A stretch of DNA of 35,402 bases, taken from Cyclobacteriaceae bacterium SS2. GTDB lineage: Bacteria; Bacteroidota; Bacteroidia; Cytophagales; Cyclobacteriaceae. Each line of letters starts with the position of its first letter. Position 1 is the first letter of the stretch. Made by a program: the position numbers and the translations under genes. The notes under the pieces were generated by a model that saw only the letters and a program-made list of their open reading frames with translations, did no database searches and was not told the origin of the DNA. The stretch lies in NCBI GenBank assembly GCA_019192515.1, contig JAHCMM010000090.1, forward strand, positions 1-35,402. The letters are read 5' to 3'. Shown here in pieces: positions 11,626 through 34,591 of the stretch.

Positions 11626-12906
11626 TTATCTAAGCCACTCCCATCTTATAGCCCAATCATTCAGAAACTCTCTACGCCATTTCGCGACTGTTTGAGCTCC
11701 TTGTTGCTCCCCGATGAAATGTCCCGGACCTGGATCATCTCCATACCATTGATCACCAAGGACAATATCATGGTCTTTTTGCAGTCCAGGCCAGGGGTTG
11801 ACACTGGTGTATTGCCCGGATTGTTCTGTAAAACCTGGTATATTACTACTAAACTTGTATGATCCGGTCTCAGGCTTCTTGGAGGAATATCTAATTCCAT
11901 ATTTACCGGATCCCACATAATAACCAGGCCATTTCTGCCCTAAAATCTCAGCTTTGAAGCATGCAGAATCCAGGGGGATATCAATTTCCGGACCCTCGAA
12001 ATACCACTCGATTATAGAATAAACAGTGATGGTATCACTCGCCGAAGTGTTTCGTTCAAACAGATCTTTGGTGCTGTGACCAATTTTAACAAAACTACCA
12101 CCCCAACTCTCACTGGTTGGGTCTTCAGCCTCACCATGCATGAGATAAGCCAGAGAGGGTGTATCACCCATTTTGATGCTTCCACCATAGTGATTCTTAA
12201 AGTCTACCCCCATCTCACCATATCCCTTTATGAAATTCTCATAAAAATTGTCGTTGGAGAGCTCTTCAGGAGAATTATCATCCAGAAACCATCCTCTGTA
12301 AGTAGCATTGGCTTCAATCATCCAAATATCCGGATGATTTTCTGCAATGTATGTGTAACTGTTTACACTCCATTTCTTGTTGGGTCCGCCGATCCAATAG
12401 ACCCTGATCTTTTCAGCAATTTCCGGTTCATCATGTAATGCTTGTGCCAGGTCTTCCAGTCCTCCCCATACGAGTATCCAAAGTGGGTTATCGCTTTGTT
12501 TATTGGCAGCCTGAATAATCCACTCCGAACCTTCTGTTGTGGTTTTCCAGCCCTTGAAAGGAGCAGCTTCAATTGCTCCCTGTTTTGTAACAGATCTAAG
12601 ATCTTCGGGAGCTGGAAAATCAGCAGAATACTTCGACATTTTTGGCAAATCTTTCGCATATAAGTCAATCATATTCAAGATATGAGACTTACGACCTGGC
12701 CCATATGGTGAAGATATCAGACCTTCAATCTCAAAAAGATCAGCATACATAAATAGATGTATGATAGATTGATAGTCATCAGGGTCTGTGCCTCCAATAT
12801 CCGTAGAGACAATAACTCTGTGTTTAGTAATATCATCTTTCTGATCTGAACAAGAGTAGATTGCCACAGCCAGGATTGCTAACAACAGTATACCGAACTT
12901 TTCCAT
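11626..12906 (-). CDS. DUF1593 (nucleoside-hydrolase-like) lipoprotein
   Basis: ORF 11626..12921; likely start MEKFGILLLAILAVAIYSCSDQ (lipobox). VIVSTDIGGTDPDDYQSIIHLFMYADLFEIEGLISS and WILVWGGLEDLAQAL motifs. Confidence 0.85.
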   Translation of the reverse strand: MEKFGILLLAILAVAIYSCSDQKDDITKHRVIVSTDIGGTDPDDYQSIIHLFMYADLFEIEGLISSPYGPGRKSHILNMIDLYAKDLPKMSKYSADFPAPEDLRSVTKQGAIEAAPFKGWKTTTEGSEWIIQAANKQSDNPLWILVWGGLEDLAQALHDEPEIAEKIRVYWIGGPNKKWSVNSYTYIAENHPDIWMIEANATYRGWFLDDNSPEELSNDNFYENFIKGYGEMGVDFKNHYGGSIKMGDTPSLAYLMHGEAEDPTSESWGGSFVKIGHSTKDLFERNTSASDTITVYSIIEWYFEGPEIDIPLDSACFKAEILGQKWPGYYVGSGKYGIRYSSKKPETGSYKFSSNIPGFTEQSGQYTSVNPWPGLQKDHDIVLGDQWYGDDPGPGHFIGEQQGAQTVAKWRREFLNDWAIRWEWLR

Positions 12907-12947
12907 TATTTTAGTTTTCAATCAAGCTGTAAAGAAACAACAAGCCC

Positions 12948-14363
12948 ATGAAATCACTTCTCATAGTCGCAATGCTATCAATCCCATATTCTTTGTTGAT
13001 AGCCCAAAGTAATATGGAAAAACCAAGAATAATAATCCTTACCGACATTGAAAACGAACCGGACGATGCGATGTCCCTGGTCCGCTTTCTCACCTACTCT
13101 AACCAGTTTGATGTGGAGGGTCTGGTGGCTACCACTTCAATTCATCAGCAAAAAGAGATCGCTACCTGGAGAATTATTGAGATCGTGGAAGCTTACGGAA
13201 AAGTGAGGGACAATCTTGAAAAACATGAGCAGGGTTATCCTACCGAGCCATATTTAAAATCTGTGATCAGGGAAGGCAGGGCAGATTACGGGATGAATGC
13301 CGTAGGCAAAGGAATGGACTCACCTGGTGCTGATTTGATCATTGCGGCTGCTGACAAAAATGATGACCGCCCATTGTGGGTACTGGCATGGGGAGGACCT
13401 AATTGTCTGGCGCAGGCGCTGTGGAAAGTAAGGGAAACTCGATCATCAAAAGAATTAGAAAAGTTCGTCTCCAGGCTCAGGGTTTATACGATCTCAGACC
13501 AGGACGACAGTGGCCCATGGATGCGCAATAATTTCAAAAACCTGCACTACATTGTAAGTCCTGGTTTTCATCGTTATGGCGGATACCATCATGCAACATG
13601 GAGTGGTATCAGTGGTGATTTTTTCCATGCACGCTGCGATGGGGGCAACTTCGAGATTGTAGACAACCCCTGGCTTGACAAGCACATCAGAAGCAAAGGC
13701 CCCTTAGGTGCTCAATATCCCTACATGACCTATTTAATGGAAGGGGACTCCCCTAGCTTCATGGGATTGATCAATAATGGACTCAATGATCCGGATCATC
13801 CGAACTGGGGTGGCTGGGGTGGTCGCTATGAACTGTACCAGCCGAGAACAGAAAAGTGGTTTCTGGAACCTGAAACGCGCGCAATCTGGACTAATGTAAC
13901 AGATGAAGTGCTCGGGCATGATGGCAGGTGGCATGACACCAACCATGCTACTATCTGGCGATGGCGTGAACATTTTCAAAATGACTTCGAGGCAAGGATG
14001 GATTGGACAATCAGGGATTTTGACGAAGCTAATCATCCACCAGTTGCCAAACTAAATCACGATCAATACCTAACTGTAAAAGCCGGTGATCGTGTAAACC
14101 TTGATGCCACCGGATCTTCAGACCCTGATGAGGACAATCTCTCCTACAAATGGTTTTACTATGGCGAACCGGGAACTTTAGCTTTATCAACTGCCCGAAC
14201 AGGTTCTCCATTAAAAATCCAGGATGATGATATGGCAAAAGCCTGGTTTACAGCACCCCAAAATACGAAGCTCGGCACCATGCATATTATCCTGATGCTG
14301 ACTGATCATGGCACTCCGGCTTTGACCCGGTATCAAAGGGTGATAATTAATGTGAAGGAATGA
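12948..14363 (+). CDS. DUF1593 (nucleoside-hydrolase-like) secreted protein
   Basis: 471 aa; signal peptide; [52 protein letters not shown]-terminal PKD/Ig-like region ([28 protein letters not shown]). Confidence 0.88.
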
Positions 14364-15800
14364 AAAATCTGCTAAAATGTCTTTAATAACCCAAATTATA
14401 GGCTTTACTATATTTAGGGCCTGCACGTGCATGAAATGCAATGCTGATCTAAAAACCTTGTACTGGGACACCTGTTTTTAGATGCATACCGGGCTACCTC
14501 AAACGAGTATTACTACGAAGCAGCAGAAAAGGTAGCCCATGCCATTATCTGGGGACAAAGTCCTGAGGGAGGCTGGAACTACATGGTGGATTTTGCCGGT
14601 GACCGGTCACTGAGACAATGGTATAATACCATAGGCAAAAACTGATGGCGGCTGGAAGAATTTCAGCACTATTATGGCAACTCCACATTTGATGATGATG
14701 TCACCTCCGATGCTGCACGCTTTCTTCTCAGGATGTACCTGGAGAAGATGGACCCCACTTATAAACCCGCATTGGACAAAGTCATTGATTTTGTGTTAAA
14801 AAGTCAATATCCTACAGGTGGGTGGCCTCAACGCTACCCGTTGAGATATGACTTTAATAAGCAGGGATTCCCGGACTATACTTCATATTATACATTCAAT
14901 GATGATGTGATCTGGGAAAACATCCATTTTCTCATCCAATGTTATGAAGTATTGGGTGAGGGGCGTTTTCTAGACCCCATTCAGCGAGGGATGAATTTTT
15001 ATCGGATCTCCCAGGACCCCAGCGGAGGATGGGGACAGCAACTCAACATGGAGATGCGAGCTACAAGTGCAAGAACTTATGAACCAGCAGCTCTTTTGCC
15101 TGGTGCTACTTTCGCCAATGCCATGCTACTCATACGGTTTTATCAGTATACCGGAGACAAAGAATTTCTCACTGGTGTACCCAGAGCCATTGAGTGGCTG
15201 GAAAAGACCCAACTTCCCAAAAAACAGGCAGAAGGGAGCCGTACTCACCCTACTTTTATCGATGTGGAGACTCAAAAACCCATCTATGTACATCGGAAGG
15301 GCTCCAATGTGAAGTATGGACGTTATTATGTGGACAACAATGACAAAAACCTACTGGCACACTACGGTGGAAAAACCAGAATCGACATCCAAAGGCTAAA
15401 GGATGAATATGAGAAGGTAAAAGCTATACCAGCATCAGAAGTCACTAAGGAATCACCCCTCATTCCTCAGAAATTTCAATACCAGGGAACCCCTCAAAAA
15501 TATTATAACCTCAACAGAGGTCGTTCTTCCAAAGAAGTGGATACCACTGCCATCTCGGAAATAATCAACGCACTTGATGAGCAAAGCAGATGGCTTTCGA
15601 AGCGAGCATATATTAGTAATCCTTACATAGGCGACGGCCAGCTTACTGACCAAACAGATAAGTATGCCTCTACCCGGGTAGGTGATGAGACAGATACTTC
15701 ACCATATCTCAATGAGAGTGACCAGGAATATATATCTACAGGTGAATACATCAGAAACATGTCGTTGCTGATCAACTATCTAAAGAAGCAAAAACTATAA
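14360..15800 (+). pseudogene. Decayed pectate-lyase-like gene (PL10-like): N-terminus lost and in-frame TGA at 14643
   Basis: Frame through 14451..15800 reads ...GHLFLDAYRATSNEYYYEAAEKVAHAIIWGQSPEGGWNYMVDFAGDRSLRQWYNTIGKN*WRLEEFQHYYGNSTFDDDVTSDAARFLLRMYLEKMD..., with homology continuing across the TGA at 14643..14645. An upstream in-frame TGA at 14445 removes the N-terminus. ATG at 14360 (MKNLLKCL*) overlaps the stop of the DUF1593 gene and may be the original start. Confidence 0.8.
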
Positions 15801-15836
15801 CAGATAGTCTTCACAGAAAAGTTATCCAACCGTTCA

Positions 15837-17210
15837 TCAGGGCTTTACCAAATTACTCAGCTCAATATACTCGCAAAGTACAGCCACATTCCGGTTGAAA
15901 ACGGCACTGCTCACCCGGTCCATTTCGTCATATTCACCGTTCCAGCGGACGCCCCGTGGCATAGTTCTTTTGAATCGGTCATTTTTGTTGATCCAGGCAC
16001 CGTTTTTATCCTGGGTCCTGAGGATCTCATTCACCTGCTCCTCCAGTTCAGCGAGTCGTTTGCTGGCAGTCTCTTTGGTCCAGGAAGGATTTTCAGCCTT
16101 CATCAGGCCTTCACGACCCAGCTCAAGCACCATTTGATATCTTTTTGTTCCACGCTCGATTTGGGCTGAAATATCCGTTTCGTAACCATAGCCAGTTCTT
16201 CGCTCTATATGTAACTCATCCATACTCTCTACACGTATTCTTCCCCTATCATAGTACAGTGACTTATTAGTCCCAATCTCTACAAACCTGGCCCATTTGC
16301 CATTTTCCAGCCTGATCTCAGTTAACCACCTCAAAGCATCCGAAATGGGTTCCAGCAGCGGTCCGTAACCAAGCACAAGGTAGAGATCAACCAAAGAGTT
16401 GATGTTTTTGATGGTGACTGAAGGGCAAACAGATGCCGGTTCAAATGACCTGGCCCAGGCAGGCTGTAAGAATTCATTATACTGCTGTGCCCAACCTGGC
16501 TGTGGTGGAGGCAACTGCGAAATCATCATAAAACGGGCGGCCTTTCTCAGGCTTTTCTCAACAGCTTCATTTTCACTGTAATATTGATATGCTTCCATCA
16601 TCACCCGTAGGCAATCATTGATGCCTTCATCGTTGAAGGTAGCGTAATCATGATAATTGCCCTGCTCGGGCCATTTGTGTGGCCATCCGCCATTGTCAAG
16701 CTGAGTCATGATCATCATGTCCAGAGATTTTTTTACTGCCTCATCCAATTTTGGGTCATCAATCTCCTGATCCAGTGCCATCAGGAAGCTAACTGCTGTT
16801 TGCGTCTGGTCATCATCAAAGCTTACGGTTTCATTGCTCAAATCTGCAAAATTGATGGTGTGGTCCCAGCCTCCATGCTTGTTTTGTCCTCGTATCAACG
16901 CATAAGCAGCTTCTTTTGCAGCCTCCAGGGCCTTTTTATCTCCAGTGACCTGATGGGCTTTAAGAAATGCCAGACCCACGGCAGGTGTTCCGGGAGGTTG
17001 TACTTCTATCGTCTGCGCATCAGCAGGACTTTCACCCCATCTCAAGGACTGATCAGGGGTCACATAATACACATACCCACCATTGGAATTGATGGAGTAA
17101 AAGTAGGAGACTCCTTTTTTGAGCGCTTCTTCAGCTTTTTTACTGAGGTCTGAAGCCTCGTCATTAAAAGATAAAAGAAAGGTCAGGAATAAAAGAAATA
17201 GGGGTTTCAT
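15837..17210 (-). CDS. Pectate-lyase-like protein (PelA/PL10-like alpha/alpha repeats), secreted
   Basis: 457 aa; signal peptide MKPLFLLFLTFLLSF; PPGTPAVGLAFLKAHQVTGDKKALEAAKEAAYALIRGQNKHGGWDHTINF..., QLDNGGWPHKWP, PGWAQQYN...WARSFEPAS; resembles the adjacent pseudogene. Confidence 0.82.
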   Translation of the reverse strand: MKPLFLLFLTFLLSFNDEASDLSKKAEEALKKGVSYFYSINSNGGYVYYVTPDQSLRWGESPADAQTIEVQPPGTPAVGLAFLKAHQVTGDKKALEAAKEAAYALIRGQNKHGGWDHTINFADLSNETVSFDDDQTQTAVSFLMALDQEIDDPKLDEAVKKSLDMMIMTQLDNGGWPHKWPEQGNYHDYATFNDEGINDCLRVMMEAYQYYSENEAVEKSLRKAARFMMISQLPPPQPGWAQQYNEFLQPAWARSFEPASVCPSVTIKNINSLVDLYLVLGYGPLLEPISDALRWLTEIRLENGKWARFVEIGTNKSLYYDRGRIRVESMDELHIERRTGYGYETDISAQIERGTKRYQMVLELGREGLMKAENPSWTKETASKRLAELEEQVNEILRTQDKNGAWINKNDRFKRTMPRGVRWNGEYDEMDRVSSAVFNRNVAVLCEYIELSNLVKP

Positions 17211-19985: not shown

Positions 19986-20780
19986 TCACAACTCCATCAC
20001 CTCGATCTTCCGGAAATGAATAGGGTGGCTTTCTGCCTGTAAAGAGATATAACCTTTGGAGATCAACAGGTTGTTTTCATCCGTGATGAGTTTTTGAGCA
20101 TCTGCATCTCTGGGATCCAGCTGAGGTTCTGTAAGCTCGAATACCAATTCACCATTCACATATTGTTTGATGGACTCGCTGCCCAGCACTTCCACTTCCA
20201 CGGTCACCCACTGGTCTCCATGAAAGGTCTTGGAAGAGGAGTTGATACAATGATTGGTAACCAATTCTCCATCTATCACCACATTGGTTCCGGGGGTACA
20301 TACATTGGCTGTGGTTCTCGGGTCATTGCCATTTCCTCCTAGCAGCTGACCTTCAATTGACACCGGAAAATCCTGATCAACTGCCATGGTTTTAGGATCC
20401 TGGCAATGCAGCATAATCCCATTATTTCTAAAAGCCCATCCTGGTCCATTGTTTACCTGATCATCTACGAACCTATACTCCACCCTGATCCTGTACCGGG
20501 AAAACTCTTCCTCATAAAAGATATGACCAAATTCTTCGTTGAAATCATCCCACTCATCATATGATATCTTCAACATCCCATCTTCTACCCGAAAAGTATT
20601 TCTTAGGTTTTCACCTAGTGGATAACCTGCAAATTTTGGTGTCCAGCCTGTCAGATCCTTACCATTAAAAATGGAGCGCCATTCATTCTTTTTGGGCCCG
20701 CAGGAATCAAAAAATAAGATGGTAATGATTAATAGAGTGATAGAGATTCCATCAAATGGTTTGATATGCTTAGTGGTCAT
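19986..20780 (-). CDS. DUF1080 (3-keto-disaccharide hydrolase-like) lipoprotein
   Basis: 264 aa; lipobox LFFDSC; EWRSIFNGKDLTGWTPKF, FRVEDGMLKI, NNGIMLHCQ and QLLGGNG motifs. Confidence 0.85.
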   Translation of the reverse strand: MTTKHIKPFDGISITLLIITILFFDSCGPKKNEWRSIFNGKDLTGWTPKFAGYPLGENLRNTFRVEDGMLKISYDEWDDFNEEFGHIFYEEEFSRYRIRVEYRFVDDQVNNGPGWAFRNNGIMLHCQDPKTMAVDQDFPVSIEGQLLGGNGNDPRTTANVCTPGTNVVIDGELVTNHCINSSSKTFHGDQWVTVEVEVLGSESIKQYVNGELVFELTEPQLDPRDADAQKLITDENNLLISKGYISLQAESHPIHFRKIEVMEL

Positions 20781-20791
20781 GTTGCTTGAGT

Positions 20792-22474
20792 TTAATTACG
20801 CCTTTTTCTTTTATAAAGAACTACAAATACAATGAATGCGGCTCCTAAAATAACAAAGCCCCAGTAACTTTTACTTTCATCCGGGACCTCTTCTATCCAC
20901 AGCAGTTGATTTACCTGCTGATTCAGTAAAATTTGCCTCTTACCTCCATTCCAGGTGACGATGACAGAATCTATCCTGGAAGCACTCCCTAGACCAAAAT
21001 GCGTAATGACAGAGTTTTGGGAGATATGTGAAGATCCCCCACCATCTATCTCCCGGATCATCTTCAATTGACCGGAAACGACCTTCACCCTCGACCCCAA
21101 ACCATTAAGTTCGGATTGGTTTCCCTTCAAACCTACTTTCAGCCAGTTTCCGGTTTCCGAATCATTTCTGAATAAATGAGTCCTGGATTCAACCGGATAA
21201 TCTTTTACCGCTTCCTGATTCACAACCAACAAATCCATGTCCCCATCATTCTCCAGGTCAAATATGACGGACCCTCTGCCCAACCCGTAATCAGCCACGC
21301 CAGCAAATGAGGCGATCTCCTCAAATTTTTCTCCTTTGTTTTCAAATAAATAATCCGCCATCGGCACACAATTGGGGTTTAGGTCTCCATTGGCAACAAA
21401 AAGATCCAGATCGCCATCCTGATCGAAATCTGCAAAATTTGCCCCCCAGCTGATGGTGTAATAGAAAGTACCCAGCTCTTTAGCGAGGTCCATGAACTTA
21501 CCATCCCGGAATCCCATAAACCTGTTGAACTTGATATTTGTAATGAAATAATCTAACCGCTCATCGTTGTTGTAGTCGCCCACTGCAGCGGTCATTGCAT
21601 TGATCTTCAGGTCCATATCAAAATCCTTCTCAACATAGCTAAATGAAGATTTTGGATAGTTGTTTCGCAGTAAATAATTGGGTTTTGCTTTATAACCAAA
21701 GTCATGGATCACATACAGGTCCTGATCTCCATCATTATCAAAGTCTGTAAACACTCCACCAAAACCAAACCCACGATGATCCAGACCATAATCATCATAT
21801 ACATTTTCAAATTCAGTTCCTCCTTTATTTTTGAGCAGATAACCATGAGCTGTTCTGCTGGCATTTACAATGGTAGCATCGTTGATTTCGTAAAGTGGTC
21901 CATCATATTCCTGGAAGTAATTACCTACATACAAATCAGGATACCCATCTACATTAAAGTCACCAAATGCCGCTCCTGTGCTAAAGGAATTTAGGTTAGC
22001 CAACTGATATTCTGCTGTTGCATTCCTGAAGGTATTATCTCCATTATTTAAGAAAAGCAGGTTGATGGCTCGTGGTATGACCTGCACACTGTCGGTGGAT
22101 GTATTGGTTGTGATGAAAAGATCCCTCCAGCCATCACGATTCACATCGGCCGATACCACTCCTTGAGTCACAAAGTGATTGGTGTATTCCAGACCAGACC
22201 CTTCGAAAATATCCCTGAATTTACCTCCTTCGTTTAGGTATAGCTTATCCTGATTAACCCCACTGGTAAGGTACAGGTCCTCAAATCCATCATTGTTTAC
22301 GTCAAATACGCAAATTCCTCCCCCGAATAGGCCCTGGTATACTTTGAAATAATGGTCTATCCCCGCGGAGTCTGTTACATCCGTAAATTTGATCTGCGCA
22401 TTTATGAGTGTGGTGCTTAGCAGAAATGCAAACACTACACCCCATCGCAATGCATGTATCAGTTTTTTCTCCAC
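20792..22474 (-). CDS. CRTAC1-like FG-GAP/VCBS protein with C-terminal ASPIC/UnbV domain and terminal TM + KRKRRN tail
   Basis: 560 aa; signal peptide; repeats DVNNDGFEDLYLTSG, DVNRDGWRDLFITTN, DFDNDGDQDLYVIHD; C-terminal GLGSRVKVVSG...SVITHFGLGSASRIDSVIVTWNGGKRQIL; SYWGFVILGAAFIVFVVLYKRKRRN. Confidence 0.9.
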   Translation of the reverse strand: MEKKLIHALRWGVVFAFLLSTTLINAQIKFTDVTDSAGIDHYFKVYQGLFGGGICVFDVNNDGFEDLYLTSGVNQDKLYLNEGGKFRDIFEGSGLEYTNHFVTQGVVSADVNRDGWRDLFITTNTSTDSVQVIPRAINLLFLNNGDNTFRNATAEYQLANLNSFSTGAAFGDFNVDGYPDLYVGNYFQEYDGPLYEINDATIVNASRTAHGYLLKNKGGTEFENVYDDYGLDHRGFGFGGVFTDFDNDGDQDLYVIHDFGYKAKPNYLLRNNYPKSSFSYVEKDFDMDLKINAMTAAVGDYNNDERLDYFITNIKFNRFMGFRDGKFMDLAKELGTFYYTISWGANFADFDQDGDLDLFVANGDLNPNCVPMADYLFENKGEKFEEIASFAGVADYGLGRGSVIFDLENDGDMDLLVVNQEAVKDYPVESRTHLFRNDSETGNWLKVGLKGNQSELNGLGSRVKVVSGQLKMIREIDGGGSSHISQNSVITHFGLGSASRIDSVIVTWNGGKRQILLNQQVNQLLWIEEVPDESKSYWGFVILGAAFIVFVVLYKRKRRN

Positions 22475-23817
22475 TGAAGGTTGTTTACATTTTCAGCAAT
22501 CTTTTTCCCTTCTCTCAATCCCACGTTATTGTCCTGAGGTACATGGATACCTCCATAAAACCTGGAGTCTGCTGTTTCCTGGGCAGCTCCCCAAAATGTG
22601 GTAAAAGAACGCTGCCTGAAATCAACATCACGAAGCTCATCACGCTCTCTCCCTACATGTGCACTATCCGTGAAAATAAATTCCTTACCATATAGATCTT
22701 CCAGTACAGTAGCAGCCGTGGCGGCCTGGATAGCATGCCCGGAAGGGAATGCCGGAAATGGAGGGTCAGGCCAGAACGATTCCCACTCCTGATCGATAAA
22801 CCTGGGGATATAGGTGTTAGGCCTTTCGGAAAAGAAATGATATTTCCATTTCCAGCAATTGATAAACGCATCTGCTACCGCAATCCCTACCCTCGCATAG
22901 GTTTCTGCTGCCTCTACTAAATTAGGCTGGTTTTTTCTTACGGCTATAGAAGCTATATAGTAAGAATGCCCTGGAGGAGTAAAAGTGACATCGGGATCAT
23001 CACCCCACCAAATGGCTATCTCCTTGTCTTCCTGTGTCAGCCGCTTATCCATTTCATAAACGGCCATAAACTGCTTGTAATATTCAGAACCAGGCGTCGT
23101 GTCATAAGGAATCATATACGGAATGGCAATGGTGTCATTCCCAGGTGCAAATCGTCTATTCTCTCCCCAATATGGGTGCAACGGATGATGACTGATGGAT
23201 TGTGAATACAATGGTGGCTCCCAGGATCCTGGATGCTCAGGGTGGACCCAATCCTTATCAAAATTTCGCAGGTATGCTCGGTGTCCGCCATCAGTCAATG
23301 ACCAGTTGAAAATGCTTTGAGCGACTGACTTACCAAATGCCACGGACCGGTCAACAATAATATCATCGCTGACCATGGATAACCTAGAATCCAGAATAGC
23401 ATTTTCCAGGGAATCAATCTTAGCCTTGTTTTCATCAGATGTTTGATTGTAAACCAACCTGATAATTTGGGCCTGGGCTGCGTTCATAGACAATATCCAG
23501 TCGATATCCTCATCATTTGCTGGAACAGGTAACGAGTCAAAACCGATCAGTTGTCCCTTTAATGAATTATGCGAGTCAAATCCATGCACCACAGACTCAT
23601 ACATAGTCAGACCGATATACCCAAAACATCTGGAAGCATAGGTTGGAGTATTGAGAGGTGTATATTGTGTAACATACAAGGCCAAATCAGCCCATTTTGA
23701 AGCAATTTCATATCCTGGGGTTGGGACTTGTTCGATATCCTGACATCTTGTGAAAAAAAGGACAACCAGCAGAACCACACCAATTGTTGGATAATTGAAT
23801 TTAGAGATAAGCTTCAT
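22459..23817 (-). CDS. Vanadium-dependent haloperoxidase (PAP2 superfamily) lipoprotein
   Basis: 452 aa; lipobox LFFTRC; full vanadate-binding set KYHFFSERP (KX6RP), PPFPAFPSGH (PSGH), SRFYGGIHVPQD (SRX5HX3D). Confidence 0.92.
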   Translation of the reverse strand: MKLISKFNYPTIGVVLLVVLFFTRCQDIEQVPTPGYEIASKWADLALYVTQYTPLNTPTYASRCFGYIGLTMYESVVHGFDSHNSLKGQLIGFDSLPVPANDEDIDWILSMNAAQAQIIRLVYNQTSDENKAKIDSLENAILDSRLSMVSDDIIVDRSVAFGKSVAQSIFNWSLTDGGHRAYLRNFDKDWVHPEHPGSWEPPLYSQSISHHPLHPYWGENRRFAPGNDTIAIPYMIPYDTTPGSEYYKQFMAVYEMDKRLTQEDKEIAIWWGDDPDVTFTPPGHSYYIASIAVRKNQPNLVEAAETYARVGIAVADAFINCWKWKYHFFSERPNTYIPRFIDQEWESFWPDPPFPAFPSGHAIQAATAATVLEDLYGKEFIFTDSAHVGRERDELRDVDFRQRSFTTFWGAAQETADSRFYGGIHVPQDNNVGLREGKKIAENVNNLQWRKN

Positions 23818-26800
23818 TGCACTAATCGGCTTTTGACTTGATAGGCTTTAACTGATGATTGATTCCTGGCAAACAGGAATAGGTCATCAATCTGAATAAC
23901 TTTCCTAATGTCTCCTGTCAGATTTAAACCGGAATTCAGCTGATTTACATAGCTAAATTGTCCGTTTCCATTACCCTGAAAGAGCATACCGTAGTTAGCA
24001 TCTGCTTTCCCTAACCTCAATTTCATACTGCTGTTGTTCCCACACAGCAACAAATCCTGATGACCATCCTGGTTATAGTCCAGCACATTGATGGTATAAA
24101 CCGGAGCAAACTGGGCTTGCATGGGGAGTTCCACATTTCGGTACTTCCCGTTTTCGCTAAGGAAAACAGAGGTTTTCAACTCATTGATCTCCAGCTTTTT
24201 GGCATTATCCAATTCCTCCTGAGTGAAAATATCGCTGATGGTCTCATCTGCAAAACTCTCATAGGACGTATATTTTGACTTGTACCTGGGAATCTGGTTT
24301 CTTAGCTCATCTCTGGTGAGGTCAGGGTAAGAGACTCCCTGGATGTAGTAACAAAAGATCGGATCGATATCCCCATTCTGATCAAAATCATCAAAATAGA
24401 GTTCTCCAGGTTCCTGATCCGAAACTTTAAACTGTAGGTTCTCCCCCATATTGCCGACAACCAGATCAGGGACTCCATCCCTATTGAAGTCTCCTGTCTC
24501 GATGACATTCCACAATCCCCTATACTCCTTGTCAAAATAACGATCAGATACATCGCTCAGAGAACTGCCTGTATTTTCAAACACCCGTACCGACATCCAA
24601 TCCCCTACTACCACTAATTCAGACTTACCATCACCATTTAGATCGGTAGCGATTGCATCCGTTACCATGCCTATGCTTGCCAATTCCTTTGACACTTCAA
24701 GCGTTTTATCTTCAAAATTTCCCGACCCATCATTGATCAGTACATAACTTGGAGGAGCTTCGGGATATTTCCCCGGTATCACACGTCCCCCAATAAACAG
24801 GTCATCATAACCATCTCCATTGATGTCCAGATTCACTGCAACAGATGAACTGGTAAGTATTTCAGGGAGTTCGACTTTTTTAAAGTTGCCTGAGCCATCA
24901 TTTAAATAAACCCGATCCTGCAGTGCCGGATCATCCTGCTTGAACAGGTGATACCCACCACTTGCCACATAAATATCCGGGAATCCATCCTTGTTGGCAT
25001 CAAAAACCAGCACATCAGTATCCACACTGGCTTTATCAGCTTCAAAAGCAGCGCCATTTCCCAGTACAAACTTTTTACTCCTCGTCTGGAAATACAGTCG
25101 AGCTGCCTGACCCTGCCCTCCTCCAATAAATATATCCTCCAGACCATCACCATTAAAATCGGCTTTACGCATGGTAGGACCTACCGCAGAGAATTGACTT
25201 GGCAACAACAACTGACGATTAAAGTCTCTCACAGTCACTTTTGCGTGGCCAAAATTAATAGGCGATCTCACCTCAGTAAACCAGGAATCATCTGTCTTTA
25301 TACCAGCAGATCCTTTTTTCGTTGATTCTGACTCCTGGATAACCACTCTGGTATTGGTGGGCTGGTTATACAATACAGACCTTTTCCCTCCCGGCCAATC
25401 TACCACGAGAGAATCGAGAACAGTCAAACTGTCTACTCCAAAATGCAGAACAGGAGAGACTGAAGACAGGTAACCCCTTACCGGATACTGCTCCAAAATC
25501 TGAAAGTTATTTTTGGCAAACAGGGAAACCTGGGCACCAACACCATCTGTATTGAGTCCTTCTCCTTTAAGTTCTAACTGAATGAAACGCTTTTTGGACG
25601 TGGATAGGTTTTCATAGACAAATGCAGGTTTATTGATATTATTGACCACCAAATCCAGGTCTCCATCATTATCAAGATCTGCATAGGCAGCACCATTGCT
25701 GTTGGCAATGTGCTCCAAACCCCAGTCAGTGGTTACATTGGAATAATTGATGTCCCCCGACTTTTTATACATATAGTTTGAGATGTCGGTAGAGGGCATC
25801 TGTTCAATAATTTTGAGGACATCTTCCCGTTGTATTCTTCCTCTCTTCTCAACATAGGAGTTCATGTAGTTGATAAAATCCAGGTTTGTATAATCCCGGT
25901 GGTATCCATTAGTAATAAAGAGGTCTTTCCATCCATCATTGTCATAGTCCGCTGCAAGTGCAGCCCATGACCAGTCGGTATTAGAAATACCAGCTATCTG
26001 ACCAACTTCACTGAAAGTAGTATTCCCATTATTCAACTGAAGCATATTGCGCATAAACTGGTAATGGAAACCGGTATTGAGGTTATGCTCAAACTTGTCG
26101 TAATTGTCCGGGGCAAGCAGAAGCTTTTGCCTTCTGTTGTCTTCTGGCAGCATATCCAGGGTGATGATATCCATATGGCCATCATTGTTGATATCTACTA
26201 CATCATTTCCCATGGAGAAATGACTACTATGACCAATGGACTCCTCCAAACTATTGTAGAATGTTCCATCCTGATTATTGATATACAAATAATCCGGCAC
26301 AGCGTAGTCATTGGAAACATAAAAGTCTGGCCATCCATCTTTATTAAGATCACTTATGCCGATTCCAAGCCCATACGTAAGCTGAGAACCGTTGATACCT
26401 GCCTTTTCCGTGATATCGGTAAACTTACCATTTTGCTGATTGTACAGCCTGATTCCCCGCATGGGGTCATCTACCGCAAATAATTCTTTCGTTTGCTGTT
26501 CATTAAGGATAGGGAGATTTCTAGGATTATGATTAAGCAGCAAAACATCCAGATCACCATCCAGATCATAATCAAGAAAATAGGCTTGGTTGCTAAAAGC
26601 CCTGCTGGCCAAACCGTAGTCCTCTGCCATTTCTTTGAAAAGGGGGACACCGTTTTCATCATTTCCCTGGTTGATGAAAAGCTCATTACGTCGTTTTTCC
26701 TCGGGCAAAGTACCTGAATAGCATAGATAGATATCCAGTCTGCCATCGCCATTGATGTCAATTATACTTGCCCCGGTTTTCCATGGACCTGGTCTGCCAG

Positions 26801-27155
26801 TGACACCAGACTTTGCTGTAATGTCTTTAAACTTCAATCCTGAGGATCCACTATTCAGGTATAATTTATTGGACTCCATATTGGAGGTAAAATAGATATC
26901 CACGAATCCATCGGCATTCAGATCACCTACGGCTACCCCTCCTCCATTGTAGAAATATTCATACATGAGAATATTGGTATTAAGCCCCTCCCTGAGATTA
27001 TTCGAGAAGGTAATTAGTGAACTATCAGGAGGGACAAGCCTGAAAAGTTTATCCTGATTTTCCGATACTTCACGGGATTCTTGTTGCTTACAGCTTATGA
27101 ATGCTACAAACGCCAGAAGAATGCTTAGCCAAAATTGGTTTTTAGACGTCATCAA
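23814..27155 (-). CDS. Large FG-GAP/VCBS repeat lipoprotein with internal ASPIC/UnbV domain
   Basis: 1113 aa; lipobox AFISC; many DxNxDGxxD repeats (DINGDGRLDIYLCYSG, DYDLDGDLDVLLLNHN, DLNKDGWPDFYVSND); UnbV-like GVGAQVSLF...VSPVLHFGVDSLTVLDSLVVDWPGGKRSVL in mid-protein, then a second repeat set. Confidence 0.9.
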   Translation of the reverse strand: MMTSKNQFWLSILLAFVAFISCKQQESREVSENQDKLFRLVPPDSSLITFSNNLREGLNTNILMYEYFYNGGGVAVGDLNADGFVDIYFTSNMESNKLYLNSGSSGLKFKDITAKSGVTGRPGPWKTGASIIDINGDGRLDIYLCYSGTLPEEKRRNELFINQGNDENGVPLFKEMAEDYGLASRAFSNQAYFLDYDLDGDLDVLLLNHNPRNLPILNEQQTKELFAVDDPMRGIRLYNQQNGKFTDITEKAGINGSQLTYGLGIGISDLNKDGWPDFYVSNDYAVPDYLYINNQDGTFYNSLEESIGHSSHFSMGNDVVDINNDGHMDIITLDMLPEDNRRQKLLLAPDNYDKFEHNLNTGFHYQFMRNMLQLNNGNTTFSEVGQIAGISNTDWSWAALAADYDNDGWKDLFITNGYHRDYTNLDFINYMNSYVEKRGRIQREDVLKIIEQMPSTDISNYMYKKSGDINYSNVTTDWGLEHIANSNGAAYADLDNDGDLDLVVNNINKPAFVYENLSTSKKRFIQLELKGEGLNTDGVGAQVSLFAKNNFQILEQYPVRGYLSSVSPVLHFGVDSLTVLDSLVVDWPGGKRSVLYNQPTNTRVVIQESESTKKGSAGIKTDDSWFTEVRSPINFGHAKVTVRDFNRQLLLPSQFSAVGPTMRKADFNGDGLEDIFIGGGQGQAARLYFQTRSKKFVLGNGAAFEADKASVDTDVLVFDANKDGFPDIYVASGGYHLFKQDDPALQDRVYLNDGSGNFKKVELPEILTSSSVAVNLDINGDGYDDLFIGGRVIPGKYPEAPPSYVLINDGSGNFEDKTLEVSKELASIGMVTDAIATDLNGDGKSELVVVGDWMSVRVFENTGSSLSDVSDRYFDKEYRGLWNVIETGDFNRDGVPDLVVGNMGENLQFKVSDQEPGELYFDDFDQNGDIDPIFCYYIQGVSYPDLTRDELRNQIPRYKSKYTSYESFADETISDIFTQEELDNAKKLEINELKTSVFLSENGKYRNVELPMQAQFAPVYTINVLDYNQDGHQDLLLCGNNSSMKLRLGKADANYGMLFQGNGNGQFSYVNQLNSGLNLTGDIRKVIQIDDLFLFARNQSSVKAYQVKSRLVQ

Positions 27156-27255: not shown

Positions 27256-29151
27256 TTAATATCCGGGATTCTGTATCAACAGATCATTTCTATTGATCTC
27301 ATCCCTGCTAATCGGACGATAATACATCTTATCGTTCCACACTCTCGTTTCATTTTCTACATTATCCACCACGGTATAGGTATAATCATATCGGGTAGGG
27401 TCATGGGCATATCTGGTAGTTGGTAACATGCCTGGTTTCAAATCTGCTGTTACCTGAATGGACTTAATTCCCCGCCCAAGTTCAGTACCAATCATCCATC
27501 TCCTTCCATCATGATACCTGTGCTCTTCATAAGCTAGCTCAATCCTTCGCTCATTTCTCAGACGATCCATCAAAGCTGCTCCAGAATCATTAATTCCAGG
27601 CATACCTGCCCTAAACCTGACTTTATTGATCCAATCTCTGGCCTCCTGCTCCTGACCCAGCTCAATGCAGGCCTCAGCGTATAGAAATGCCATCTCTGTG
27701 TACCTGATAAATGGCCATGGAATTACCTGGGCATTTGATTGATTATCTGGTAAAGCCGGATCGGGATCAATAAACTTACGGGTATAGTAATGGGTCCTGG
27801 TACCATTCCAGTCTTCGACTGATGACTTCCTGGTATCTACTCCATTTATTGTAATAGGCTCTCCCGAAACCGGATCACGGCCCTCGTAAAATCCTGTCTG
27901 AATTTGATTAACTGAATCGTAACTCACTACATCATCTGGTCGCGGTTTCCAGCTGGCTCCATCATATAGGATGGTGGCATAAAACCGGGGATCCCTGTTG
28001 TCGTATGGCGCTGCAGCATGAGTCGGGTTACCCCAGTCAAATTCAGAACCATCCATCATTTCATAGTCATCTACAAGTTGTTGGATCGGTGTATTACCTG
28101 CCCAGTTGTGATATCCATTCGGACCATTATTGATACCATAGTGGATACCTCCTAATGGCCAGGCACTCTCCTGAGTATACAATGGTGTATGTGTCCTCTG
28201 GAAAATCAGTTCTATCGCTGCTGTTGCGTCACCTATCGCACTTTGTCCACCCATTGCTATGGATACATAGTTTGCTTCACCTTCTTCAGGGGTAACAGGC
28301 GCGGTAAGATTCATTTTATAACCCGATGTAGCATCAAGCACTGCTTTTGCTGCTGTTTGGGCAGCTGTCCACCGATCCGTCTGATTTCCAGAAGTATAGG
28401 CCACCAACTCAATGTTGTTGTAGCCAGCCAAAACACTTGAATTAGCTTGTGCGGTAGTTGCATCATGCAAATCACTGGCAGCATACGCTAAAACACGCGC
28501 CTTCAAAGCCATTGCACTTATTCTTGAAGCTCGTCCGGCAGTAACATCTTTACCTGTCAATAAAGTTGTAGCCTGATCCAAATCTGCGACAATAGCATCA
28601 ACACACTCAGCAAAAGTATTTCTGGCTATGGCATAATCTTCATCTAGACCATAAGGCTCCAAAATGAGTGGAACACCACCATAATACCTAAGTAATTGAT
28701 GATAATAGTAAGCTCTTAGAAAAAAAGCTTCACCTAACAATCGATCTCTCAAGGTTTCATCAAATGTAGCTTCTGGTAAGTTGGCAATGGCCACATTAGC
28801 TTCCCTTATAGCCAGGTACATATTACCCCATTCATATGTTCCACTGATCCAGGCTAAAGAACCAGGACTTTCAGTACCCTCGGTAAAACGATCAATGTTA
28901 CGTCCAGCATGGGTAAACATGGCTTCATCAGTAATGGATGCCAATGCCTGCTCTTCAAATCCACCATATCCCAGGAAGGAATAAACATTATAAACGAATG
29001 CCTGAGAAAGTGGTCCATCAGACCAGACAGCCTCACTGGAGACTTTATCTAATGGTTGCGTATTCAAAAATCCTTCATCACACGACCAGGGGAGCGCCAC
29101 GCAAACAGTTATAATTAAAATATTTATTGCTTTTTTCATTTTAATCTTCAT
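27256..29151 (-). CDS. RagB/SusD-family nutrient-binding outer-membrane lipoprotein
   Basis: 631 aa; lipobox LPWSC; FLNTQPLDKVSSEAVW, EAFFLRAYYYHQLLRYYGGVPLI, LRNERRIELAYEEHRYHDGRRWM. Confidence 0.95.
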   Translation of the reverse strand: MKIKMKKAINILIITVCVALPWSCDEGFLNTQPLDKVSSEAVWSDGPLSQAFVYNVYSFLGYGGFEEQALASITDEAMFTHAGRNIDRFTEGTESPGSLAWISGTYEWGNMYLAIREANVAIANLPEATFDETLRDRLLGEAFFLRAYYYHQLLRYYGGVPLILEPYGLDEDYAIARNTFAECVDAIVADLDQATTLLTGKDVTAGRASRISAMALKARVLAYAASDLHDATTAQANSSVLAGYNNIELVAYTSGNQTDRWTAAQTAAKAVLDATSGYKMNLTAPVTPEEGEANYVSIAMGGQSAIGDATAAIELIFQRTHTPLYTQESAWPLGGIHYGINNGPNGYHNWAGNTPIQQLVDDYEMMDGSEFDWGNPTHAAAPYDNRDPRFYATILYDGASWKPRPDDVVSYDSVNQIQTGFYEGRDPVSGEPITINGVDTRKSSVEDWNGTRTHYYTRKFIDPDPALPDNQSNAQVIPWPFIRYTEMAFLYAEACIELGQEQEARDWINKVRFRAGMPGINDSGAALMDRLRNERRIELAYEEHRYHDGRRWMIGTELGRGIKSIQVTADLKPGMLPTTRYAHDPTRYDYTYTVVDNVENETRVWNDKMYYRPISRDEINRNDLLIQNPGY

Positions 29152-29158
29152 TTAAAGG

Positions 29159-32100
29159 TTAGAATGATATTGTTACTCCGGTATTGATCACGCGAGCCTG
29201 AGGATAGTATGTGCCCGCCTGATTTTCAGATTCCGGATCAAAAATATTGTGCTCATCAAATGTCAACAGATTCAGCGCATTCACGTAGAATCTCACCTGT
29301 GCCAAACCAATTGACTCCAAGGGACCTGATGGCAGGGAATACCCAATTTCAATATTCTTAAGTCTGATATAATTCTTGCTGAATAACCAGTAAGTATTAT
29401 TTCCAAATGCTCCACCTGTATAGTAGGTGTCACCACGACTAGCCATTCTTGGGTGTTCACTACTAGGATTTGTGATGCTCCATCGATTGTCAAAGTGATA
29501 CTTCAAGAAGTTTCCAATATCCCCGGACTCTGTTTGAACCCGAATAGCTGCTCCGGTAGCCCCCTGGAATAACAGAGAGAAATCGAAGTTTTTGTAATAG
29601 ATATTGGCAGTTGCTCCAAAATTGAAAGTAGGTGTTGCATTTTTATCAATACGTATCTGATCATCTGCATCAATGATACCGTCTCCGTTTTGATCAATAA
29701 ACTTCATGTCACCTGGACGTAAATTCCCGGTAACTGCACTGTAGTCCAATGTATTGGCAGCAATGGCTTCTTCATCACGGAAAACTCCATCGGACTCATA
29801 AACCAGGTATGCACCAATCGGTTTTCCCTCCTGATGTTGATATTCAGGATTACCAGGTACCTCATCCATGAAGATTACTTCATTCTTAGCATAACCACCA
29901 TTCACACCAAAGTTGTAGGTAAGTTCTCCTCCTTGTCCACTATATAGGACGTCAAATTCGAATCCAGAATTCTTTACTTCTCCTTTGTTCTGAGGAGGTA
30001 ATAAAGCTGTAATTCCAGATGACGCTGGAGTAGAGCCTGTTTCCTGGATCAGGATCTGGCTTCTGTAATTGTAGAAGTATTCCAGACTTAAATCCAAACG
30101 GCCAAACAAGGTTGCATCAATACCACCGTTCCAGTTATTAGCTCTTTCCCAGGTGAAATTAGGGTTTGCAATAACCTGCTCAAACAAAGTGGCCTGAACC
30201 TGTCCATTGATTGGGTATTCACCAAATGAATAAGTTGACAGGTAGGCAAATTCCTGAAGGCTTCCATTAAAGAATACCTGGTCATTACCCATTTGTCCAT
30301 AAGACGCCCTTACTTTCAGGTAGTCTAAACCTGGAACATTAAACCAACTTTCATTAGAAGTATTCCATCCGACCAAAAATCCAGGGAAGAATCCAAATCG
30401 ACCTGATTCAGGAAAGATGTATGAACCATCATATCTCCAGATAAACTCTGCCAGATATTTTTCCTGGTAATTATACTGAGCTCTTCCGTAGTATCCCATT
30501 CTTGGTCTTGAATATGCCGTACCTCCATTGTCCTGGCCTTCTGTTCCTCCAACAAATAGCTGATCCACTGCTGGTGAAATATAGTTTCTACGATAGGCAT
30601 AGAAGTAGGTACCTGAGAATAGCTCCCTTGTCACACCTGCTAACAGGTTGATGGTATGATCCCCAAACTTTTTATCGTAGTTTAACATCGCCGTATAATT
30701 CGTATTAAGGGTGGTATTCATTCCCTGAGTCAATCTTGGGTCAGTGAAATTTGACCTTACAGCTGGCACCAGTAATGGAGTAACTCCATCAGATTCATAA
30801 GTAACACGATCCCAATAATACAATTCCCATGGTGTTTGCCATCTCTTCAAAAAATCATTGTTTTTGTCTATGGCTGCTGACAAAGTCAACTTCAATCCTT
30901 CAATCCATGGGTTGGTAATATCAACTGTTCCATTTACCTGGATCAGGTCCTTCGGATTATCTACATAACCAGTTGCATTTGTTGTGATCACATATGGATT
31001 TTGACCATTTTCGATATCAGGCCCAGGCTTTCCATTTGGCCACACTTCCGGTTCGGTTGGGCGACCTCTCATCAACATCCTAAATATCGAGCCAGCACTT
31101 TCAGTAGGAAAGTTTCTATCTTCCCTGCGTGCCATTACACCAACTTTGGTTTTAATGTACTCATTAATGTTGGCATCCAGGTTAACTCTTAGGTTGTACT
31201 GTTTGTATCGAGTAGCTGAGTTTTTGTAGTATGCATCCTGATCTACAAAACCAATTGAGGTGAAATATTTGAAATCATCATTTCCACCTCTAATAGAAAG
31301 ATTATGCCTGCTCTGAGGTGACCATGTTTTGAAAGCATCTCCAAACCAGTCTGTATCAGGATAGCCCCATGGGTCTGATCCAGAACCATGCCTCTGAAGT
31401 TCGTCCTGGGTAAGGTAGGCAATAGCTGTTCTATTATCTGATGGTGAAGTGTATTCATCATTAGCAAGGAAGCCAGCCCAGGCATCTTGCCACTCTGCAG
31501 GATCTGTAACTCCATTGAAGATAGCAATCTCATTCATAATAGTACCATATTCCACGGCGTTGGCCATTTCGGGTACTACTGTAGGTTGTGCCCAACCCTG
31601 ATTGTAACTGTAATCAATTACAGGTTTACCTGATGCACCTCTTTTAGTAGTGATCAGAATAACACCATTAGCTGCTCTCGCTCCATAGATGGCGGCTGAG
31701 GCATCTTTAAGAATTGAGATATTCTCAATATCCAATGGGCTTAATCTTCCTAATCCACCATCCCGATCAGGTATTCCGTCAATAACGACTAATGGACTGC
31801 TGTTTCCAAGTGTATTGATTCCTCTGATATTTATTCTGGCGCCATCATATCCTGGTTCGCCGCTGGTCTGGATCACTACAAGTCCGGGTAACCTTCCTGC
31901 CAGAGAGTTGGACATGTCAACCGCAGGAGATTTTACAATATCCTTTCCCTTCAAAGCACTTACCGCTCCTGTTACAGTTTCCTTTTTCTGAGTACCGTAT
32001 CCCACGACGACCACTTCCTGAAGTGATTCAACATCTGGTTTTAATGAAAGATCAATGGAGGTTCTACCCTCAACTGGAACTTCCATAGGAACGTAACCCA

Positions 32101-32665
32101 CGAAAGAGATTACTAAAATGGCATCATTATCTCCAACTGTAAGGGTGTAATTTCCATCTACATCTGTGATGGTTCCATTTGAAGTACCTTTTTCCTGAAT
32201 GGTAGTTCCTGGTAAACCAGAACCATTTTCATCGGTAATCACACCCCGAATAGTGGGCCCTTGATGAATGGCCACTGATACGCGGGGTTCGTCTGCTCTG
32301 CGCTTTCTTTTGCTTACACTGATGCTGTTGTTTACCTGACCAAACTGCAGATCCATTACTTTGGATAATTCCATCAGTACTTCTTCAACTGTGGCATTTA
32401 CCACATGAATATTACTGGTAATGGAGAGGTCAATCTTGTTGCTGCTTAAACTGAATCTGTAATTTGTTTTTCGCTCTATCTCTTCAAGGATGTCAGATAG
32501 TTTTGCATCTGTAAGGTTCAAGGAAATATTGACTGCTTTAATACTTTTTACCTGTGCCACAGTCTCATTGGCCAGGGCCAGATCTAAAGTAATAAAGAGA
32601 ATAGCAAGTACCTGAAAAGACAATTTAGAAACCATATATATGGTATTGGTAAATTTGTTATTCAT
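29159..32665 (-). CDS. SusC/RagA-family TonB-linked outer-membrane protein with N-terminal STN domain
   Basis: 1168 aa; STN-like KLSDILEEIERKTNYRFSL...VEEVLMELSKVMDLQF; carboxypeptidase-like domain; SLQEVVVVGYGTQKKETVTGAVSALKGKDI; NISILKDASAAIYGARAANGVILITTKRG. Confidence 0.96.
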   Translation of the reverse strand: MNNKFTNTIYMVSKLSFQVLAILFITLDLALANETVAQVKSIKAVNISLNLTDAKLSDILEEIERKTNYRFSLSSNKIDLSITSNIHVVNATVEEVLMELSKVMDLQFGQVNNSISVSKRKRRADEPRVSVAIHQGPTIRGVITDENGSGLPGTTIQEKGTSNGTITDVDGNYTLTVGDNDAILVISFVGYVPMEVPVEGRTSIDLSLKPDVESLQEVVVVGYGTQKKETVTGAVSALKGKDIVKSPAVDMSNSLAGRLPGLVVIQTSGEPGYDGARINIRGINTLGNSSPLVVIDGIPDRDGGLGRLSPLDIENISILKDASAAIYGARAANGVILITTKRGASGKPVIDYSYNQGWAQPTVVPEMANAVEYGTIMNEIAIFNGVTDPAEWQDAWAGFLANDEYTSPSDNRTAIAYLTQDELQRHGSGSDPWGYPDTDWFGDAFKTWSPQSRHNLSIRGGNDDFKYFTSIGFVDQDAYYKNSATRYKQYNLRVNLDANINEYIKTKVGVMARREDRNFPTESAGSIFRMLMRGRPTEPEVWPNGKPGPDIENGQNPYVITTNATGYVDNPKDLIQVNGTVDITNPWIEGLKLTLSAAIDKNNDFLKRWQTPWELYYWDRVTYESDGVTPLLVPAVRSNFTDPRLTQGMNTTLNTNYTAMLNYDKKFGDHTINLLAGVTRELFSGTYFYAYRRNYISPAVDQLFVGGTEGQDNGGTAYSRPRMGYYGRAQYNYQEKYLAEFIWRYDGSYIFPESGRFGFFPGFLVGWNTSNESWFNVPGLDYLKVRASYGQMGNDQVFFNGSLQEFAYLSTYSFGEYPINGQVQATLFEQVIANPNFTWERANNWNGGIDATLFGRLDLSLEYFYNYRSQILIQETGSTPASSGITALLPPQNKGEVKNSGFEFDVLYSGQGGELTYNFGVNGGYAKNEVIFMDEVPGNPEYQHQEGKPIGAYLVYESDGVFRDEEAIAANTLDYSAVTGNLRPGDMKFIDQNGDGIIDADDQIRIDKNATPTFNFGATANIYYKNFDFSLLFQGATGAAIRVQTESGDIGNFLKYHFDNRWSITNPSSEHPRMASRGDTYYTGGAFGNNTYWLFSKNYIRLKNIEIGYSLPSGPLESIGLAQVRFYVNALNLLTFDEHNIFDPESENQAGTYYPQARVINTGVTISF

Positions 32666-32794: not shown

Positions 32795-33823
32795 TCATAG
32801 GCTCTTATTAAATTTTACTTTCACATTTTTTCCGGTTAATTCATACGTCATGTCCAATGCCTGGCTCATGGATTGCAGCACATTGGATAAGTATTCATTG
32901 TCAAACTCCCCTGAATACTTCACCTCTTCATATCCACCTGAAACATCGATCTGAACATCATACCAATTTTCAAGTGTCCTGAGTACTTCACTAATAGGTG
33001 TTTCTTTAAAGAAAATAATGCCCCTGGTCCAGAGCATATCTGTCATATCTTTTTGGAAGGAAGGTGCTCCTAAGCCTTTTTGTACAGAATAGGCCGTTTT
33101 TTGCATGGGCTCAAGTCTGATCACCTGATCCTTCTGATCTATTACACTTACTTCCACTGATCCTTCTGTGAGGAGTACATCCACTGATGCTTCAGTTGTC
33201 TTTACATTAAAGGCAGTCCCCAATGCCCGTGTTTCTATTTGTCGTGACTTTACAATGAAAGGATGCTCCGGATCTTTAGCTACCTTAAAATAGGCCTCAC
33301 CTTCTAATTCAATGTATCGGTTTTGTGCAAAATCACTGCTGTATGTAAGGGTACTATTGGAATTTAACATTACTCTGGTGCCATCGGTAAGTACAATTTC
33401 TGACTTCCTGCCTTTGGGGTTTGTTCTTTTGATGGTCTGTACTTCTACCTGATTACTGGCGACAACAGTAGCATTATCAAAGCCTTTGTAATAGAATAGT
33501 AGTCCAATTCCAATGGCCAACACAATACTTGCTGCAATTCGGAAATATCTGAAAGATCGCCTTTGCTCTGTCCCGAGTGAATTACCTGGTACCTGTAAAA
33601 TAGATTTAAGGATTTCATCTTTCTCTTCTTCATCAGGCTGTGAGGTAGAAGGATATTGGAGTGACAGGATCAACTCCCTGGCTCTAAGCACTTCTTTCTC
33701 ATATTGAGGATTGGCCTCCAGCCACTTCTCCCAGAATAGCGATGACTTGGGAGTAGGGTTAAGCACCCAGGATCTAAACTCCTTATCTGTGAGAAAATCT
33801 TCTAATTCCTTCTTATTAGACAT
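32795..33823 (-). CDS. FecR-family anti-sigma factor
   Basis: 342 aa; single TM IAASIVLAIGIGLLFYY; TNPKGRKSEIVLTDGTRVMLNSNSTLTYSSDF; GEAYFKVAKDPEHPFIV; C-terminal STN-like domain. Confidence 0.94.
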   Translation of the reverse strand: MSNKKELEDFLTDKEFRSWVLNPTPKSSLFWEKWLEANPQYEKEVLRARELILSLQYPSTSQPDEEEKDEILKSILQVPGNSLGTEQRRSFRYFRIAASIVLAIGIGLLFYYKGFDNATVVASNQVEVQTIKRTNPKGRKSEIVLTDGTRVMLNSNSTLTYSSDFAQNRYIELEGEAYFKVAKDPEHPFIVKSRQIETRALGTAFNVKTTEASVDVLLTEGSVEVSVIDQKDQVIRLEPMQKTAYSVQKGLGAPSFQKDMTDMLWTRGIIFFKETPISEVLRTLENWYDVQIDVSGGYEEVKYSGEFDNEYLSNVLQSMSQALDMTYELTGKNVKVKFNKSL

Positions 33824-33976: not shown

Positions 33977-34591
33977 TTACTTATCAAGAGTAAGCCTGAT
34001 GGCTTTCAGAGAACGATAAATAAGATTTCTGGCTGCTCGGGTACTTGTCATACCCATAATATCTGCAATCTCCGAATAACCCAGCTCTTCATAGAAGAAA
34101 AAATGGATGGCCTCACGTTGTCTTGCTGTCAGCTTTGCAATGGCCCAGCTTATCCTTCTTAATTGACTTTGTGAAAACTGCCTGGCGATGATTACAGTTT
34201 CGTGAGAGGGCGTTACCAGGAAAGGTTGATTAATTGAGGCCTCACTCAACGAATCCGATCGCTTACTCTTCTTGATCTCATTTAGTAGTTGATTTCTGAT
34301 ACTCTTGATGAGAAAGGCTTTCGGGGATTGCACTGAAGGCAAAGCTGACCGGTTTTTCCTCAGCTTGTAAAAAAGATCCTGAATACAATCCTTGCACAAC
34401 GGCTTATTGGATGTAAGCCTAAAACTGTAGTCATAAAGGATTTGGAAGTATTGATTGTAAACCTCAATAAAAGCGGCTTCGCTACCCTTCCTAAATTCTT
34501 CCCATAACCGAAGATGATCTATTGGCTCATCGTCAATTCTCGTCCCCTTTGGACTGTGGTGATCATTATGACTCTTGGGTAGCAAACTCAT
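33977..34591 (-). CDS. RNA polymerase ECF-type sigma factor
   Basis: 204 aa; region 2 AAFIEVYNQYFQILYDYSFRLTSN...IQDLFYKLRKNR; region 4 LTARQREAIHFFFYEELGYSEIADIMGMTSTRAARNLIYRSLKAIR. Confidence 0.93.
   Translation of the reverse strand: MSLLPKSHNDHHSPKGTRIDDEPIDHLRLWEEFRKGSEAAFIEVYNQYFQILYDYSFRLTSNKPLCKDCIQDLFYKLRKNRSALPSVQSPKAFLIKSIRNQLLNEIKKSKRSDSLSEASINQPFLVTPSHETVIIARQFSQSQLRRISWAIAKLTARQREAIHFFFYEELGYSEIADIMGMTSTRAARNLIYRSLKAIRLTLDK

Follow-up and report, generated by a model that had tools for sequence, protein, structure and literature searches.

A vanadium-type haloperoxidase homolog in a conserved transporter-propeller gene run of Bacteroidota

What is the role of a vanadium haloperoxidase (VHPO) homolog whose gene lies within a run of genes for an outer-membrane transporter and propeller proteins? 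The question arises from a contig of Cyclobacteriaceae bacterium SS2 (GCA_019192515.1, JAHCMM010000090.1), a stretch of 35,402 nucleotides analyzed at its full length and called the window below. VHPO-family matches were present in 78 of 396 sampled Bacteroidota genomes, and to our knowledge the Zobellia enzymes are the only Bacteroidota relatives with a characterized activity.

The haloperoxidase homolog and its N-terminus

The VHPO gene (22459..23817, minus strand) encodes a protein of 452 amino acids from an ATG start and has a complete set of predicted vanadate-site residues. KYHFFSERP (22819..22845, minus strand) holds K325 and R332, both expected to bind vanadate, with P333 following; PPFPAFPSGH (22735..22764, minus strand) holds the putative vanadate-binding pair S359-G360 and the acid/base residue H361, with Phe354 seven positions before that histidine (H-7); and SRFYGGIHVPQD (22531..22566, minus strand) holds R419, the predicted vanadate ligand H425, and D429. 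A sequence-only reading of this DNA had reported the open reading frame and the three motifs, and they are present exactly as claimed. Its further claim of a complete vanadate signature was borne out in an alignment of 102 sequences, where K325, R332, and H425 never vary and the remaining site residues are kept in 91 to 99 sequences (R419 in 99, H361 in 97, and S359 in 95). Every member of the clade of the window VHPO keeps the complete active site. Some Bacteroidota paralogs have lost catalytic residues: the acid/base histidine is replaced by leucine in L064, L065, and L068, and the SGH and Arg419 sites are altered in L114, L120, and L124.

A Pfam search of the protein returned PAP2 alone (E = 4.7e-10), and an NCBIfam search returned no match. 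The top PDB sequence match was the Zobellia vanadium iodoperoxidase 4CIT/4USZ (residues 55-444; E = 2.3e-45), algal bromoperoxidase and fungal chloroperoxidase being much weaker. The PAP2 match, the 4CIT/4USZ match, and the conserved site residues together put the motif set beyond chance. The window gene encodes a real and probably active vanadium-type haloperoxidase homolog, and the enzyme forms a new clade within an already known family.

The signal peptide (23743..23817, minus strand) ends in a lipobox-like VLFFTRC that closes on Cys25. The lipobox of the sequence-only reading stands as regards this cysteine; the surrounding FFTRC-Q, with Arg at -1, is not canonical. All 21 same-clade relatives with an intact N-terminus have a cysteine closing the hydrophobic stretch, preceded by Gly, Ala, or Ser in about 16 of the 21 (read by eye), and the same-genus homolog has SRC at this position. 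This conservation makes lipidation credible, and the protein is likely to be lipid anchored at the cell surface.

Predicted fold, nearest relatives, and halide preference

An AlphaFold2 model built with 44 aligned homologs (mean pLDDT, 92.5; pTM, 0.90) has a full-length haloperoxidase fold. Foldseek ranked 4CIT and 4USZ first (E = 8.9e-24; TM score, 0.78 by query and 0.86 by target), followed at E values of about 1e-12 to 1e-11 by NapH3 (8cxl), the actinobacterial chloroperoxidase 3w35/3w36, XhnO11, and the fungal chloroperoxidase. Acid phosphatases came at E values of 6e-4 or worse, with TM scores of about 0.3 by query and alignment over about half of the model.

With Zg-VIPO1 of Zobellia galactanivorans (4CIT/4USZ), the window VHPO shares the vanadate-site residues, Phe at H-7, and the full-length fold. 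The two differ in having only about 30% identity and in residues near the site (P358 where 4CIT has Thr, D429 where it has Ala, and K323-W324 where it has Asp-Glu), and in an IQ-TREE analysis of 44 sequences they fall in clades set apart with 100/100 support; the window VHPO is thus outside the bacterial V-iodoperoxidase (Zg-VIPO1) clade by tree, and related to it. The Curvularia inaequalis chloroperoxidase (1IDQ/1VNC) has the signature, Phe at H-7, a near-identical PPFPA[FY]PSGHA stretch, and the WK-x-K lead-in in common with the window protein but is longer, has 17-18% identity over the fold, and is a weak sequence match (E = 0.1-1.2). The algal and cyanobacterial bromoperoxidases (1QI9, 1UP8, and 5LPC) share PSGH and the vanadate-site architecture, whereas they are larger, overlap poorly in fold (TM score below 0.3 by query), and, in 1QI9, have His at H-7.

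Class A acid phosphatases (PAP2) have the signature motif in common with the VHPO and are about half its length. Foldseek did not find for the VHPO the compact single-domain fold, with phosphatases as nearest structures, that defines membership in that class. In both sequence and fold the protein is nearer to solved VHPOs than to phosphatases; an acid phosphatase family was ruled out on these two grounds, and the earlier assignment to the haloperoxidases is backed by them. Phosphatase activity was kept as a possibility. A surface phosphatase, working as a PAP2 enzyme without vanadate, would dephosphorylate a ligand so that SusC-SusD could import it; the solitary Pfam match to PAP2, the motif common to acid phosphatases, D429 in the H-X3-D element (as in the phosphatase signature and missing from 4CIT), and a linkage to SusCD genes that suits a ligand-trimming enzyme would all fit. 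We consider this reading unlikely, given a full-length haloperoxidase fold to which acid phosphatases align marginally, and given that the sequence relatives are haloperoxidases. Dephosphorylation is possible as a side activity by analogy with apo-haloperoxidases, which are capable of it (3bb0 is a trapped phosphate intermediate). NapH3, a haloperoxidase homolog that catalyzes another reaction, is a caution that haloperoxidase-like kinship leaves another reaction possible for the window protein as well.

Phe at H-7 had been put forward as a resemblance to the fungal chloroperoxidase. The residue is real, and the contrast is correct for the two enzymes concerned, the fungal chloroperoxidase having Phe (PPFPAYPSGHA) and the A. 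nodosum bromoperoxidase having His (SPTHPSYPSGHA). The hint of chloroperoxidase type is not supported: 4CIT, which with 4USZ is described as a vanadium iodoperoxidase in PDB titles and whose iodide specificity is also given in PMC13198595, likewise has Phe (PPFPEYTSGHS), and the residue is the family norm, found in 90 of the 102 aligned sequences. Since it is family-wide and present in an iodoperoxidase, Phe at H-7 does not discriminate, and we dropped it as a chloroperoxidase marker. The residues around it in the window VHPO, PPFPAFPSGHA, are closer to the fungal sequence than to that of 4CIT. According to a 2026 paper, the residues that set halide preference in these enzymes are largely unknown (PMC13198595); the algal and marine-bacterial enzymes described are all bromo- or iodoperoxidases (PMC10427571).

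A conserved run of transporter, propeller, and haloperoxidase genes

On the minus strand, the window encodes in order an ECF sigma factor (33977..34591) and a FecR-type anti-sigma factor (32795..33823), both probable regulators; a SusC/RagA TonB-dependent outer-membrane transporter (29159..32665); a SusD/RagB lipoprotein (27256..29151); a double FG-GAP propeller lipoprotein of 1112 amino acids with UnbV/ASPIC (VCBS1113; 23814..27152); the VHPO; a CRTAC1-like propeller protein of 560 amino acids (FG-GAP plus UnbV/ASPIC; 20792..22474) with a signal peptide, a C-terminal membrane helix, and a basic tail; and, 11 bp downstream, a protein of the 3-keto-disaccharide hydrolase family (DUF1080; 19986..20780). 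The propeller gene overlaps the start of the VHPO gene by 4 bp, the end of the VHPO gene overlaps the CRTAC1-like gene by 16 bp, and 7 bp separate SusC from SusD. A promoter and terminator scan gave no clear excess over shuffled sequences. The DUF1080 gene is present in just 5 of 22 loci and is therefore accessory; it and the FecR/sigma pair (FecR in 6 of the 22) were dropped as core parts for their patchy occurrence. The window also contains two divergent neighboring genes of the Sde182 nucleoside-hydrolase-like family (11626-14363), two convergent adjoining genes with pectate-lyase (Pec_lyase) domains (14733-17210), and an open reading frame of 403 amino acids with no Pfam match (3828-5039).

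An AlphaFold2 model of the propeller lipoprotein retrieved CRTAC1 first with Foldseek and otherwise generic propellers. CRTAC1 (9ETN) combines an FG-GAP propeller with a UnbV/ASPIC domain, as do both window partners; these differ from it in that one is a lipoprotein with two propellers and the other has a membrane tail. The hydrophobic C-terminal helix and basic tail of the CRTAC1-like protein are conserved in its orthologs, an odd feature for an expected outer-surface protein.

A scan of 84,980 genomes in which the VHPO protein was the sole query yielded 18 loci, to which further genomes were added, so that the loci behind the gene-order counts were gathered mostly by VHPO similarity alone. 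Twenty-five VHPO genes form one clade (FastTree support, 0.991; IQ-TREE, 100/97 for 13 representatives), with hosts in the Flammeovirgaceae, Flavobacteriaceae, Saprospiraceae, and Jiulongibacter; those named include Flammeovirgaceae UBA7330 (84% identity), Splendidivirga corallicola, Jiulongibacter sediminis, Maribacter, Saprospiraceae, and Lewinella. Within this clade the CRTAC1-like gene is directly 3' of the VHPO gene in 25 of 25 loci, the propeller gene is directly 5' in 22 of the 24 loci that could be assessed, and SusC-SusD come before the propeller gene in 19 of 21 assessable ones. Two members (L167 and L168) keep the CRTAC1 partner and lack the propeller gene and SusCD. This conserved SusC-SusD-propeller-VHPO-CRTAC1 run is the most informative feature of the locus and was absent from the sequence-only reading.

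The association extends beyond the clade. A same-strand propeller gene lies within 300 bp of 50 of 101 Bacteroidota VHPO genes (window clade included), and in the window's own genome four of the five VHPO-family genes abut one of just nine propeller genes, against a chance expectation of about 0.02 by a simple Poisson calculation, in which neither operon structure nor common ancestry is taken into account. With the window SusD as the query, SusC-SusD-propeller modules were found in other genomes (SusD, 52-58% identical). Six of these, each from a different genome (L169-L174), are followed by VHPOs of the distant Zobellia-iodoperoxidase-type clade, L173 and L174 having a tandem VHPO pair behind a single module (L173:11752-14536 and L174:11702-14530). 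The clades between the two propeller-linked VHPO clades mostly have no propeller genes. The pairing may have had two origins or may have been lost in between; in both cases it is recurrent. A gene identical to 4CIT at 383 of 388 residues (L139) lies directly behind three tandem propeller genes and, like the window VHPO, has a lipoprotein-like N-terminus; unlike the window locus, it lacks both an immediately upstream SusCD pair and a CRTAC1-like gene on its downstream side. The structurally solved iodoperoxidase thus appears to share part of the window arrangement.

Five such modules lack a nearby VHPO (L160-L162, L164, and L165), and these, with the two clade members that have the CRTAC1 partner only, make the link strong and not absolute. 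A universal VHPO-propeller link was dropped, as sister VHPOs (L058, L059, L102, and L103) and members of other related clades (L110, L116, and L107) stand amid unrelated genes. In L160 (12775-17118) the place of a VHPO behind the module is taken by a ThuA-glucose/sorbosone dehydrogenase-cytochrome c-CBM6 protein together with one of the DUF1080 family, and by sequence likeness L161 likewise has a ThuA-sugar dehydrogenase-cytochrome c-CBM6 fusion and a separate DUF1080 protein. The genes downstream in L160 hint at a sugar-containing ligand.

A literature search combining VHPO with SusD, VCBS, FG-GAP, or SusC, and ASPIC/UnbV with SusC, found no paper on the cluster; with few subscription journals covered, this is weak evidence that the transporter-propeller-haloperoxidase run is unreported.

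Possible roles at the cell surface

Polysaccharide-utilization systems likewise have a SusC-SusD pair with ECF sigma and anti-sigma factors upstream. The window cluster differs from them in a conserved core that has no glycoside hydrolase or lyase, the VHPO being its sole conserved enzyme. Across the loci we found no conserved glycan-degrading enzyme, and within the cluster no conserved H2O2-producing enzyme and no known iodide transporter.

The explanation that we favor, with some reserve, is that the protein is a surface-lipoprotein haloperoxidase, in a clade of its own within the wider Bacteroidota group to which the Zobellia iodoperoxidase also belongs, and that it acts as the enzyme of a SusCD-propeller uptake assembly whose parts are specified by a single run of genes. 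SusC, as a TonB-dependent channel, and SusD, as its lid, would import a ligand that the double-propeller lipoprotein and the CRTAC1-like protein may bind or scaffold, perhaps within one physical complex. With vanadate bound, the VHPO would use H2O2 to convert a halide, most likely iodide or bromide, to hypohalous acid at the cell surface; the acid could oxidize or halogenate the captured material, or the enzyme might instead remove H2O2 that arrives with it. A bolder version, which we hold only tentatively and think doubtful, is a new outer-membrane uptake machine in which the VHPO replaces the glycoside hydrolase as the SusCD surface enzyme and hypohalous acid modifies or breaks up organic matter before import, two VHPO lineages being paired with the same type of module.

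A role in defense, in which the VHPO clears H2O2 or produces hypohalous acid to ward off competitors and is merely cotranscribed with a general uptake cluster, would agree with the related VHPOs that stand alone in other genomes and with the Zobellia V-iodoperoxidase vIPO3, which shows raised expression on the brown alga Ascophyllum and has been discussed in connection with algal halogenated-compound defense (PMC9296495). We judge it improbable, as it leaves unexplained why two distant VHPO clades lie beside homologous SusC-SusD-propeller modules. Least probable is iodide oxidation for iodine capture, with SusCD or the propellers holding oxidized iodine, as proposed for Arenibacter C-21, an H2O2-dependent iodine accumulator with at least five 4USZ homologs in its genome (PMC5064120); the missing iodide transporter argues against it, as do some clade members whose record titles give no hint of a marine source (e.g., isolate Ww117 and several Saprospiraceae).

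The part worth following is the conserved transporter-propeller-haloperoxidase gene run. The conserved link of a VHPO with SusCD and propeller lipoproteins gives these enzymes a role that can be tested directly, the handling of nutrients or halogens on the cell surface. The association could account for the abundance of VHPO genes in the Bacteroidota.
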